From contig JACQZZ010000059.1 of NCBI GenBank assembly GCA_016213625.1, forward strand, positions 1-47,971: a DNA stretch of 47,971 bases, read 5' to 3'. The notes below the pieces were generated by a model, which had not been told where the DNA came from, ran no database searches, and saw only the letters and a list, made by a program, of their open reading frames with translations. Below are positions 26,290 to 31,953 of the stretch, piece after piece (the stretch's first letter is position 1; each line of letters starts with the position of its first letter). Made by a program: the position numbers and the translations under genes. The DNA is from Actinomycetota bacterium. GTDB lineage: Bacteria > Actinomycetota > Acidimicrobiia > Acidimicrobiales > Ilumatobacteraceae.

Positions 26290-27924
26290 TCAGGTTCGCA
26301 CGCGGACCTGCGTGGCGGCCTCGCCTGCGTGGTAGCTGCTGCGCGTGAGCGGGCTGGCTTCCACGTGGCCGATGCCGATCGACGACCCGAGCGTGGCCCA
26401 GCGGGTGAACTCGGCGGGCTCCACCCAGCGCGCCACCGGAAGGTGGTGCGAGGTGGGCCGTAGGTACTGGCCGATGGTGACGATGTCGACCCCGACGGTG
26501 GCGAGGTCGGCCAGCAGGCCATCGACCTCGTCGGACGTCTCCCCCAGCCCGACCATCAGGCCCGACTTCACCACGAGGCCCGCCGCCTTGGCACGGGCCA
26601 GCACCGACAGACTGCGCGAGTAGGACGCCGACGGGCGCACGGCGCGCTGCAGACGGGCGACGGTCTCGATGTTGTGGTTGAACACGTCGGGCCGGGCGTC
26701 GAACAGCAACTGCAGCGACGCGTCGTCACCCTTCGCGTCGCTCACCAACGTCTCCACCGTGGTGCCCATACGCGCGTCGCGGATCGCGTGCACGCACGCC
26801 GCCACGTGAGCGAAGCCGCCGTCGACGAGATCGTCGCGGGCCACCATCGTGAGCACCGCGTGCTGCAGGTCGCTCGACGCCACGGCAGCGGCCACACGCC
26901 GAGGTTCGTCGGCATCGGGCAGTTCGGGTTTCCGGGTGTCGACCAGACAGAAGCCGCACGCACGAGTGCACCGCTCACCCAACACCATGAACGTCGCGGT
27001 GCCCGCCGCCCAGCACTCACTGAGGTTGGGGCAACCCGCTTCCTCGCACACGGTGACCAGCCCGTGGTCGCGCACGGTCTTCTTCATCGCCAGCACGTCG
27101 GTGCCCAGTTGCACCTTGGGTCGCAGCCATTCGGGCTTGCGCGCCGAGATGCTCAGCCCCTCGGCCACACCGGCGGCTTCGAGCCGCACGAGCGCGCGGC
27201 CCATGAGCCCCGGGCCCTCACCGCGCGAGAAGGGAGCCAGATCGGTGGGCACGTGCTTCCACGCGACGTCCTGACGCTCGATGGTGCCGTCGCCCCAGAG
27301 CTCGGCCGCGCGGCGGGCGACGATGTCGGCCACCTGCTGCAACGACACGACGACACCCTCTTCGGCCAGCGAGGTGACCGGCTTGTCGCCGATGCCGCAC
27401 GGCACGATGTAGTCGCGCATGTAGCGCATGTCGGTGCTGACGTTCAGGGCGAAGCCGTGCATGGTGCGCGCATGCGCGAGCCGCACGCCGATGGCACAGA
27501 TCTTGCGAGGATTCGGGCCGCTGACGCCGACCCACACACCCGGGTACTCGTCGAGGCAACCCACGTCGGCCACGCCCAACTCCTGCAGCGTGCCGACGAC
27601 GAGGCGTTGGATGGCGCACACGTGGTCGCTCGCGCCCAGTGCATTGGGCACGTTGACGATGGGGTATCCCACCAGCTGACCGGGCCCGTGATAGGTGACG
27701 TCGCCACCACGCTTCACCGAGACCAACTCCGCACCCACCGACGCGGGCTCGACGAGGACGTTGGACGACAGCTCGGCACGCGGGCCGTGGGTGAACACGT
27801 GTGGGTGCTCGAGCAGCAGCAGATGATCGAGCGAACCGTGCTCGAACATCGACTGCTGCAGGGCGAGCGCCTCGCGGTACGGCACGCGTCCGAGCCAGCG
27901 GACGCGCAACGGACCGGAGGTCAT
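26290..27924 (-). CDS. lipBA: Fused octanoyltransferase LipB - lipoyl synthase LipA
   Basis: A single 544-residue frame encodes both enzymes of lipoate synthesis. Residues 1-225 are LipB: signature RGGDVTYHGPGQ at 72-83, catalytic Lys141 in RKICAIG and Cys176 in IVPCGIGDKPVTS. Residues from about 245 are LipA, a radical-SAM enzyme that inserts two sulfurs: auxiliary-cluster cysteines 293, 298 and 304 (C-x4-C-x5-C), radical-SAM cysteines 319, 323 and 326 (C-x3-C-x2-C) and the C-terminal RSSYHAGE. All key residues of both halves are present. The ATG lies 4 bases after the E2 gene stop, so the enzyme is made with its main substrate. Confidence 0.93.
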   Translation of the reverse strand: MTSGPLRVRWLGRVPYREALALQQSMFEHGSLDHLLLLEHPHVFTHGPRAELSSNVLVEPASVGAELVSVKRGGDVTYHGPGQLVGYPIVNVPNALGASDHVCAIQRLVVGTLQELGVADVGCLDEYPGVWVGVSGPNPRKICAIGVRLAHARTMHGFALNVSTDMRYMRDYIVPCGIGDKPVTSLAEEGVVVSLQQVADIVARRAAELWGDGTIERQDVAWKHVPTDLAPFSRGEGPGLMGRALVRLEAAGVAEGLSISARKPEWLRPKVQLGTDVLAMKKTVRDHGLVTVCEEAGCPNLSECWAAGTATFMVLGERCTRACGFCLVDTRKPELPDADEPRRVAAAVASSDLQHAVLTMVARDDLVDGGFAHVAACVHAIRDARMGTTVETLVSDAKGDDASLQLLFDARPDVFNHNIETVARLQRAVRPSASYSRSLSVLARAKAAGLVVKSGLMVGLGETSDEVDGLLADLATVGVDIVTIGQYLRPTSHHLPVARWVEPAEFTRWATLGSSIGIGHVEASPLTRSSYHAGEAATQVRVRT

Positions 27925-27928
27925 CGGG

Positions 27929-29377
27929 TCACAGCTCCGCAGCCCAGTCGCGGGTCTCCAGCTCGTGCTTGATGCGCGACAGGAACCCGGCGGCGTACGC
28001 ACCGTCGAACGCCCGGTGGTCCCAGCTCATCGCCAGCTGCCCCACGGGGTGGATGACGATCGCCTCGGTGCCGTCGGCCAGGTTGGCCACGACCGGCTTG
28101 CGCACGATGGCGTCGGTGGACAGGATGGCCACCTGCGGCTGGTTGATGATGGGCATCGTCAGCACACTGCCGGCGGAACCGTTGTTGCTGATGGTGAAGG
28201 TGCCGCCGGTGATCTCGTCGGGGCTCAGCTTGCGCGAACGAGCGCGACCGGCCAGGTCGTTGATCTCGCGGGCGATGGCCCGCAGGCGCTTGGTCTCGGC
28301 GGCACGAACCACCGGCACGAGCAGACCCTGGAAGTCGAGGTCGACGGCGATGCCGACGTCGATGAAGTTGTGCACGACCAGCTCGTCGTTGCCGACGCTG
28401 GCGTTCAGGTGCGGGAACTCGGCCAGTGCGTCGACCACCGCACGGGTGATGAACGGCAGGTACGTGAGGCTGAACCCCTCGGTGGCCTTCCACTCGCCCT
28501 TCACCTTCGCGCGGGTGGCGTCGACGTTGGCGTAGTCGACCTCGACCACGCTGAAGGCGTGCGGGCTGACGGCCTTGCTCATCACCATATGGCTGCCCGT
28601 GAGCTTGCGGATCTTGCTCAGGCCGACCGAGGAGTCGCGCTCGCCCGACACCACGGCTGGGGCCGCTGCCGGCGGCGTGACCACCGGTGCTGCGGCGGGT
28701 GCGACCGGTGCCGGCGCCACGGGGGCCGGCGCCACAGGTGCTGCCACCGCAGGGGCGGCAGGGGCTGCTGCAGGAGCCGCCGGTGCGGCACCCTGGCTGA
28801 TGCGGTCGATGTGGTCGAGCACGTCGTCGCGCGTGATGCGACCACCGGGGCCGGTGCCGGCGAGGTCGTCGGGGTTGATGCCGTGCTCGGCCACGAGGCG
28901 ACGAACGACCGGCGAGAGCAAACGGCTGTCGCCGGTGAGCGACTCGGCCGACACCGCGGCAGCCGCCGCGGCGGGCGCGACCTCAGCGACCGGGGCAGGG
29001 GCGGGAGCCGGGGTCGGGACGGGCGGCGGCGCGACCTCGACGACCGGAGCCGCAGCAGGCGCCGGGGCCGGAGCGGGCGCCGGCTCGGGCTCCGCCACGG
29101 GGGCGGCAGCCGGTGCCGGGGCAGGCGCAGGTGCGGCGGCGGAGTCGGTGCTGACCACGGCGATCACCGCACCCACGGGCACCGTGTCGCCTTCATTGGC
29201 GCGGATCTCGAGCAACACGCCCGCCACGGGCGACGGCACCTCGGTGTCCACCTTGTCGGTGCTCACCTCGAACAGCGCCTCGTCGGCGGCGACGGTGTCG
29301 CCGACCTTCTTGAACCACCGGGTGATGGTGCCTTCGGTGACGGTCTCGCCCAGTTGCGGCAGGGTGACGTCGGCCAT
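27929..29377 (-). CDS. 2-oxoacid dehydrogenase E2 (dihydrolipoamide acyltransferase)
   Basis: Core acyltransferase of a 2-oxoacid dehydrogenase complex, 482 residues. One lipoyl domain (1-78) carries Lys42 in EVSTDKVDTEV. A Pro/Ala-rich swinging arm follows (about 80-150), then the E1/E3-binding domain (about 151-188), a second Pro/Ala linker and the catalytic domain with HRAFDG (His454, Asp458) near the end. In mycobacteria the comparable DlaT serves pyruvate dehydrogenase with AceE and Lpd, and lies near lipB and lipA. Here it is flanked by lpd and lipBA, and aceE is 17 kb away, so PDH is the likely complex. I chose ATG 29375-29377 (GAGGAG upstream). Confidence 0.92.
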   Translation of the reverse strand: MADVTLPQLGETVTEGTITRWFKKVGDTVAADEALFEVSTDKVDTEVPSPVAGVLLEIRANEGDTVPVGAVIAVVSTDSAAAPAPAPAPAAAPVAEPEPAPAPAPAPAAAPVVEVAPPPVPTPAPAPAPVAEVAPAAAAAAVSAESLTGDSRLLSPVVRRLVAEHGINPDDLAGTGPGGRITRDDVLDHIDRISQGAAPAAPAAAPAAPAVAAPVAPAPVAPAPVAPAAAPVVTPPAAAPAVVSGERDSSVGLSKIRKLTGSHMVMSKAVSPHAFSVVEVDYANVDATRAKVKGEWKATEGFSLTYLPFITRAVVDALAEFPHLNASVGNDELVVHNFIDVGIAVDLDFQGLLVPVVRAAETKRLRAIAREINDLAGRARSRKLSPDEITGGTFTISNNGSAGSVLTMPIINQPQVAILSTDAIVRKPVVANLADGTEAIVIHPVGQLAMSWDHRAFDGAYAAGFLSRIKHELETRDWAAEL

Positions 29378-30963: not shown

Positions 30964-31383
30964 TCACGCCAGCTTCCACCGCACCGTCTGATCGGCTCTG
31001 GTGAACACCAGCAACCGGTCGGCGGTCTTCATCGCCGTCGTGGCGAACGAGAGCGTGCACGAGACCGGTTCCACGGTGAACCCGGTGCACGCGTCGTCGC
31101 CCGTGCCGCTGGGCTCGGACACCGCACCGGCACCCACCAGCGTGAAGCCCTGCAGCCCGTCGGGGTCGTCGACCCCCGACAGCGAGACGGTGACGACGGC
31201 GATCCCGTCCGCCTCGTCGTACGCCGTGACCTCGACCCTGGCATCGCCGGCTGTGGCCGACTCGCCGATGGCGAGCACGGTGGCCTTGTCCTGATTGGCC
31301 AGCCGCAACAACTGCACCGTGCCGGCGACGAGAATGGCGAGTCCGCAGGTGACGGCGAGCAGGAGCAACGTGCGGGTCTTCAT
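30964..31383 (-). CDS. Small membrane-anchored or exported protein of unknown function
   Basis: Not recognised. The 139-residue product starts MKTRTLLLLAVTCGLAIL, a single N-terminal hydrophobic segment with no lipobox, followed by a probably extracytoplasmic beta-rich domain. Two cysteines (DDACTGF and PVSCTLSF) are spaced so they could form a disulfide. The fold resembles small DUF4352-like immunoglobulin domains, but I cannot confirm this. ATG 31381-31383 lies 9 bases after TAGCCT. It is divergent from the thioredoxin-like lipoprotein gene with only 36 bases between the start codons; both products are predicted to act outside the membrane. Confidence 0.7.
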   Translation of the reverse strand: MKTRTLLLLAVTCGLAILVAGTVQLLRLANQDKATVLAIGESATAGDARVEVTAYDEADGIAVVTVSLSGVDDPDGLQGFTLVGAGAVSEPSGTGDDACTGFTVEPVSCTLSFATTAMKTADRLLVFTRADQTVRWKLA

Positions 31384-31419
31384 GGCGCACACAGGCTAGG
31401 GGCGGTAGGGTCCGCCGAC
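31384..31419. promoter_or_regulatory. Back-to-back leaderless promoters in 36 bases
   Basis: TAGCCT on the minus strand at 31393-31398 (9 bases before the ATG at 31383) and TAGGGT on the plus strand at 31406-31411 (8 bases before the ATG at 31420). Each -35 region would fall inside the opposite gene's transcript start, so the two promoters should exclude each other. Confidence 0.5.
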
Positions 31420-31953
31420 ATGCGTCGCTCGCTGCTCGCCCTCGCACTCGTCGGAGCCCTGCTCTCGGCATGCGGCGACGACCGCGTCACATCGTCGGCG
31501 TCCACGGATGCCGCATCGTCCACTGCCGCCACGACCGGTGACGGGGCAGTCCCGGAGGCGCTCGACTTCAGCGCGCCGTTGGTCAGCGGTGAACAGCTCG
31601 ATTTCCGCGGCTACGCGGGGGAGACGGTCGCGCTGTGGTTCTGGGCGCCCACTTGAGTGACCTGCAACCGTGAAGCCCCCTCGGTCGAGGCGGCGAGCAA
31701 CAAGTGGGCCGACACGGTGCGGTTCGTCGGCGTGGCCTGGTACGGCGACGACTCGTCGTTCCAGGGGTTCATCAGCGAGCACGGGCTCACGTTCCCGCAG
31801 GTGAGCGACGACGCCGGCGATGTCTTCTCCCGCTTCGGCGTGCCGTCCCAGCCGGCCCTCGTGGTGATCTCCCCGGACGGCGAAGTGCAGCAGCTGTTCG
31901 GTGCCGTCGACGAGGCACTCCTCGACGACATCCTCACCCGCGCCACTGGCTAG
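31420..31953 (+). CDS. Thioredoxin-like lipoprotein, putative selenoprotein (UxxC)
   Basis: A 177-residue TlpA/DsbF-like lipoprotein if the in-frame TGA at 31654-31656 is read as selenocysteine. Residues 1-18 are a lipoprotein signal (GALLSAC, lipid on Cys18). The thioredoxin motif reads WFWAPT-[TGA]-VTC: the UGA is residue 79, exactly where relatives have the attacking Cys of CxxC. The frame and homology continue unbroken after it (NREAPSVEAASNKWAD, PQVSDDAGDVFSRFGVP, the cis-Pro site VPSQPALVV). A GGUC-loop hairpin 26 bases downstream fits a bacterial SECIS. Role: an extracytoplasmic disulfide or peroxide reductase. Alternative: a nonsense mutation or sequencing error. Confidence 0.8.
31675..31694 (+). 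promoter_or_regulatory. Candidate bacterial SECIS element
   Basis: In RNA, GCCCCCUC-GGUC-GAGGCGGC: a 4-bp upper stem (CCUC/GAGG), one C-C mismatch, then 3 more pairs. The tetraloop GGUC begins after 26 bases from the UGA. Bacterial SECIS elements have an apical loop roughly 16-37 bases from the UGA with G at the first loop positions, often GGU. The match is good, but such short GC stems are common in this genome. Confidence 0.6.

Follow-up and report, generated by a model that had tools for sequence, protein, structure and literature searches.

A predicted selenoprotein with UGA at the catalytic cysteine position of a DsbF/MPT53-like thioredoxin fold in Ilumatobacteraceae

Is a thioredoxin-like gene with TGA in place of its attacking cysteine a broken gene, two genes, or a single gene in which UGA is read as an amino acid, and, if so, as which one? 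This question is raised by a stretch of 47,971 nucleotides, here called the window, which is positions 1 to 47,971 of contig JACQZZ010000059.1 (assembly GCA_016213625.1; Actinomycetota, Ilumatobacteraceae). An original prediction, made from the letters of the window, proposed a selenoprotein. Upon re-reading, the frame is as it had been described: it runs from ATG 31420 to TAG 31951-31953 and its sole internal stop is TGA 31654-31656, i.e., codon and residue 79. The translation is MRRSLLALALVGALLSACG...WFWAPT*VTCNREAPSVE...SQPALVV...TG*. When read through, a hydrophobic start with LSAC is followed by a low-complexity linker and then by a domain matching PF00578 and PF08534. The features to which we refer are these:

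31420..31953, + strand: predicted selenoprotein gene, 177 residues, UGA at codon 79, DsbF/MPT53-like thioredoxin fold (frame, sequence and fold matches)
31462..31473, + strand: lipobox-like LSAC, residues 15-18, with Cys18 as the predicted lipid anchor (sequence reading, simple lipobox pattern)
31654..31656, + strand: in-frame TGA, predicted Sec79, at the position of the attacking Cys (frame, DsbF/MPT53 alignment, family genomes)
31663..31665, + strand: Cys82, second residue of UxxC, resolving Cys by homology (invariant in a 50-row alignment)
31675..31694, + strand: predicted SECIS hairpin GCC-C-CCUC-[GGUC]-GAGG-C-GGC, loop 31683-31686 (conservation, covariation)
31852..31854, + strand: Pro145 of a QPA motif, cis-Pro site by homology (Pro invariant in the 50-row alignment)
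30964..31392, - strand: divergent neighbour, 142 aa, with a hydrophobic N-terminus and a Cx9C pair (conserved beside the gene, no Pfam match)

UGA at the site of a catalytic cysteine, a conserved hairpin behind it and four selenocysteine genes in the same genome lead us to predict that UGA is read as selenocysteine. The gene would thus encode a UxxC enzyme, probably one held by a lipid anchor on the membrane's outer side. We put the probability of this reading at roughly 0.94.

The read-through protein matches DsbF (3ios, E 9e-21, query residues 41-166) and MPT53 (1lu4, E 2.8e-20), in both cases on either side of the TGA. The first Cys of the CxxC motif of both proteins aligns with the TGA codon, exactly as had been claimed for the attacking residue. 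The best Pfam models are PF00578 (55.6 bits) and PF08534 (52.6 bits); among NCBIfam models 16 families appeared at E < 0.1, all of them under their own cut-offs. An AlphaFold2 model computed from 50 aligned sequences has a mean pLDDT of 88.3 and exceeds 90 from about residue 41 onward. In this model residue 79 lies directly before the helix 80-95 and Pro145 occupies the cis-Pro site, i.e., U79 and C82 form a UxxC at the start of the first long helix. Among solved structures the model is closest to the same two, 3ios with a TM by target of 0.94 (rmsd 1.3) and 1lu4 with 0.90, and the thioredoxin-fold topology is the same as in DsbF and MPT53. Residue 79 (read as Cys), C82 and P145 are invariant in an alignment of 50 rows which were picked for having the UGA and whose protein identity goes down to about 39-40%. 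Conservation past the UGA up to and including the cis-Pro, another part of the original prediction, is therefore borne out by the matches on both sides and by the invariant Pro145. A simple lipobox pattern is present in 71 of 84 UGA loci, and the protein is likely a lipoprotein located outside the membrane.

How widespread is the UGA? A match at E<=1e-20 was obtained in 140 of 221 genomes of the same bacterial family, and the best match contains an in-frame TGA in 137 of the 140. From these 137 genomes 78 were fetched and read; in all 78 the TGA is situated at the active site. The other three (G203, G133, G123) have a Cys paralogue, WFWAPWC..CRGEAP, as their best match. Beyond the family the codon is met again. 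A sample of the class yielded matches at E<=1e-18 in 53 of 395 genomes, 30 of them outside the family, and in 22 of these 30 a TGA falls within the best match. Seven of these loci were read: five have the TGA at the site, one has Cys and one lacks a match to the site pattern. In a sample of the phylum 43 of 396 genomes match, 33 of them outside the family; TGA occurs in 16 of the 33, always at the site. Four loci (L129, L163, L165, L166) did not match the site pattern, the last three of them from genomes counted as being without TGA. Thus the UGA is conserved in frame and aligned with the catalytic Cys of homologues.

Sense codons at this position in close relatives are the exception. P0002, a full-length relative of 170 aa on a contig of 760 bases, has Leu (WFWAPTLTTC), which may be a real substitution or a sequencing error. 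The genome G121 has a tandem pair (L068, G121:C154:59948-62228) in which a Cys copy without the hairpin precedes the UGA copy by 0.3 kb. In a tree of 55 rows, computed with the site masked, this Cys copy sits inside the UGA clade and is for this reason best read as a likely change from Sec to Cys. On the same tree the Sec and Cys labels need 4 changes, at least 3 of them required by well-supported branches; the deep branches are weak.

Database entries present a different picture of the gene. The set of 55 homologues, to which the window itself contributes one, contains 48 entries with a length of 97-100 aa and a query coverage of 44-55%. "Peroxiredoxin" is the name given to 18 of the 55 and most of the remaining ones are nameless; taxonomic labels among the relatives include Ilumatobacteraceae, Ilumatobacter sp. 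and Acidimicrobiaceae. The starts of three of the 48 half-length entries were read (P0004, P0022, P0034), and these, like the longer P0015 and P0016, start directly after the TGA.

The second line of evidence is the RNA behind the UGA. It was analyzed in 84 loci, 77 after removal of near-copies; the pattern by which they were picked required UGA at the site, hence the counts apply to UGA genes alone. All 77 genes have TCG (Ser) as the ninth and GTC (Val) as the tenth codon after the UGA, whereas the identities expected from codon usage are 0.22 and 0.35. Codons 8 and 1 are likewise biased, and beyond column 24 none of the columns with more than 25 rows lay above expectation by more than 0.35. 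The consensus is GCC-n-CCUC-[GGUC]-GAGG-n-GGC with a loop which begins 26 nt after the UGA, and RNAalifold recovers exactly this structure unprompted. In 76 distinct rows 97.9% of the cells are paired; sliding the partner by 1-3 columns lowers pairing to 27-61%. Two-sided changes within a pair were counted in 21 cells, whereas the shuffles averaged 3.0; the covariation score of 0.174 exceeds the 0.080 of the shuffles, and no shuffle out of 500 reached either value. Counted by pairs instead of cells, two-sided changes (2 against 1.3) do not rise above the shuffles (149/500). Four rows have GAA at codon 11, each with CCT at codon 8, i.e., a paired synonymous change. As a 20-nt piece the hairpin folds as drawn in 77 of 77 genes and attains -7.5 kcal/mol or lower in 67 (-9.9 kcal/mol in the window). 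The inner 4 bp together with the loop GGUC are complete in all 77 UGA genes versus none of the nine Cys homologues read.

The limits for bacterial SECIS elements given in the part of PMC13188914 used here are a loop of 3-9 nt, an upper stem of at least 4 bp, a G in the first two loop positions, a distance of 16-37 nt from the UGA and an MFE <= -7.5. The hairpin of the window lies within them (loop GGUC, 4 bp + 3 bp, 26 nt, -9.9 kcal/mol). When these limits are applied loosely, so that any hairpin counts, 71 of 77 UGA genes pass and so do 8 of 9 Cys genes; such a search does not separate the two groups and does not serve as main support. It misses 6 of the 77 and also the UGA relative L136. Single-sequence stability is unremarkable (z -1.78; further values 0.00, 1.14, -0.48 and -0.32) and is consequently left out of the argument, and an Rfam scan of the window gave no match above cut-off. 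The weight of the case for the hairpin is carried by conservation and covariation. Five more distant UGA genes (L103, L132, L147, L150, L155) have the loop GGUC at the same place on a different, fully paired stem. L131, L134, L136 and a second gene of the window's own genome are without this hairpin, and for L136 no hairpin whatever passes.

The third line is the machinery. The genome of the window (4.5 Mb in 117 contigs, 92% complete) encodes SelA and SelD. About 1.6 kb behind SelA, on the same contig, is a SelB winged-helix domain, and the identification of SelB is based on this domain only. A single tRNA-Sec scores above the Rfam cut-off (66 bits) and ARAGORN agrees, with anticodon tca. A search of the genome for selA, selB, selC and selD had been suggested as a check of the original prediction, and all four are there. 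Family-wide, SelA was found in 163 and tRNA-Sec in 147 of 221 genomes. In the 137 UGA genomes the figures are 122 for SelA, 110 for tRNA-Sec and 133 for either, versus 43 with either in the 84 other genomes of the family; Fisher's test gives 1e-16, which is no strict probability because the genomes are related. With the count restricted to UGA genomes of >= 90% completeness and <= 5% contamination, SelA or tRNA-Sec is present in 52 of 52. Outside the family the phylum sample has SelA in 15 of 16 genomes with TGA versus 10 of 17 without (p 0.04). One genome, G831 (93% complete), has the UGA gene and no SelA match.

Which other explanations are conceivable? Taken alone, a single internal stop in one draft genome of 117 contigs would fit an ordinary thioredoxin gene of the Cys type, either broken by a nonsense mutation or affected by an assembly error. 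Yet the identical TGA stands in every one of the 78 family genomes read, at protein identities down to about 39-40%, the frame is conserved past it, and synonymous sites are frozen beneath the hairpin. An assembly error is excluded by this recurrence across many genomes, and a broken gene as such has practically no chance of being correct. It is also very improbable, if slightly less so, that the second half is a separate protein of 98 aa, as the databases have it. It would begin at the GTG which in the window is the codon right behind the UGA, and the 97-100 aa of most database homologues agree with this. However, a start codon (GTG) follows the UGA in only 2 of 77 UGA genes. Moreover, the part before the UGA is conserved too, as the beginning of the thioredoxin domain that continues behind it, and the short protein would be devoid of the first strands and of the first active-site residue.

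The remaining alternative accepts read-through and dispenses with selenium: UGA might be read by another tRNA, e.g., for Trp or Cys, through general or leaky recoding. In its favor one may cite four of the 137 UGA genomes (G018, G026, G037, G168) with neither SelA nor tRNA-Sec and the Leu at the site of P0002. All four genomes are, however, less than 90% complete. Further, several orthologues, e.g., L017 and L019, use TGA as their ordinary stop; UGA thus is no general sense codon. A tRNA-Sec with anticodon tca is present together with SelA, SelB and SelD, and reading by another tRNA leaves the conserved hairpin unexplained. We regard this alternative as improbable, with a little more room left to it than to the other two. 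Reading of the UGA as selenocysteine remains the preferred explanation.

If so, selenocysteine synthesis and insertion would take the following course. SelD would make selenophosphate, SelA would convert Ser-tRNA(Sec) to Sec-tRNA(Sec), and SelB bound to the hairpin 26 nt past the UGA would deliver this tRNA. The chain would then be exported via its signal and anchored through Cys18. Outside the membrane Sec79 would attack exported proteins at their disulfides, or at oxidised thiols, and the mixed bond would be resolved by Cys82. Attack by Sec79 and resolution by Cys82 are likely by analogy with the related families; selenium incorporation, export, lipidation, enzyme activity, redox direction (oxidase, reductase or isomerase) and substrates are in this scheme inferred.

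A lead to a substrate may be found next door. In 29 of the 33 loci tested the gene has a divergently encoded protein (142 aa; 30964-31392 in the window) as its neighbour. This protein has no Pfam match, and its Cx9C pair was seen in each of the 27 rows covering it, some of which are near-copies. Possibly this protein is a dedicated substrate or partner of the thioredoxin-like protein. An lpd gene was found in 23 of 33 loci, with flanks of limited length. Elsewhere in the window, at 26290-28002 (- strand), a single frame of 570 aa seemingly consists of a LipB-like part followed by a LipA-like part. Judged by its motifs, the frame is possibly a natural LipB-LipA fusion.

Does the genome have other demands for selenocysteine? 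Two further UGA genes lie on contig C91, to which paralogues had led. One, a further TlpA-like gene (L105, - strand), has TGA at L105:6511-6513 in the context WLWAPH-U-PYC and a strong hairpin, GUCGAGC[AGUUC]GCUCGAC, whose loop is 34 nt after the UGA (z -3.38); a Cys paralogue with WFWAPWCVVC is located about 3.7 kb away. The other is a GrdB-like gene at L105:66-1100 (+ strand; PF07355, 41.9 bits) with TGA at L105:912-914 in VPV-U-PVCH; a hairpin with loop AGUUG follows, the loop 17 nt past the UGA. Each is a selenoprotein candidate from a single sequence. The best match to the alpha subunit of formate dehydrogenase has no TGA inside and reads CARVCHSPT, a Cys form, and SelD of this genome is a Cys form as well (SCGGCAAK). 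With both as Cys forms, neither supplies the demand for selenocysteine in this 92% complete genome. According to the part of PMC1794560 consulted, each selenoproteome in an early survey contained FdhA or SelD, and these were proposed to maintain the trait. Set against the Cys forms in the genome of the window, that proposal turns what keeps the Sec trait into a testable question.

What do these data mean? A predicted selenoprotein family is encoded in most genomes of one bacterial family (137/221) and also in other families of the class and the phylum, while the databases hold it mainly as half-length pieces, often under the name peroxiredoxin. The family offers natural Sec/Cys comparisons, the tandem pair of G121 included, on what selenium gives an extracytoplasmic thioredoxin. 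One may tentatively go further and imagine that exported selenoenzymes of this kind form a family that has long been overlooked, runs through the Actinomycetota and is retained even by bacteria with small genomes. It would act on a dedicated, back-to-back encoded and membrane-anchored Cx9C partner and, together with a few further selenoproteins of the thiol type and in place of formate dehydrogenase or SelD, would keep the Sec machinery alive. In its entirety we consider this broader picture rather doubtful.

Finally, how does the protein compare with known systems? With peroxiredoxins it shares the matches to AhpC/TSA and redoxin domains. The peroxidatic motif of peroxiredoxins is PxxxT/SxxC; the active site here is WFWAPTUVTC, i.e., a WFWAPxUxxC context without PxxxT/SxxC, and the active site gives the name peroxiredoxin no support. 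ResA, TlpA and DsbE belong to the same fold superfamily, but the ResA structures rank behind DsbF and MPT53, the protein scores 58.9 bits with the ResA model, far under the cut-off of 170, and these proteins have CxxC where the window protein has UxxC. Selenocysteine at the catalytic Cys of thioredoxin folds, which the original prediction had called known from other bacteria, is indeed well documented in the parts of PMC13188914 and PMC1088965 at hand. UxxC types described there comprise a Prx-like thiol:disulfide oxidoreductase, redoxin-family and thiol-disulfide isomerase-like proteins (PF00578, PF08534, cd02966). Compared by description alone, they share with the protein of the window the UxxC and the broad domain families; those same parts make no mention of a DsbF-like lipoprotein. 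No paper on a DsbF-like actinobacterial selenoprotein family was found among open-licence PMC papers, which is no proof of absence in print. UxxC selenoproteins of the thioredoxin fold are thus already known; apparently new here are the DsbF-like actinobacterial family, its unusually broad conservation and its widespread truncated annotation. Most similar are DsbF and MPT53 of M. tuberculosis, which resemble the protein in the active site, the cis-Pro region and the length of the domain. They differ at the decisive position: DsbF and MPT53 have Cys preceded by Trp, the gene of the window has UGA preceded by Thr.
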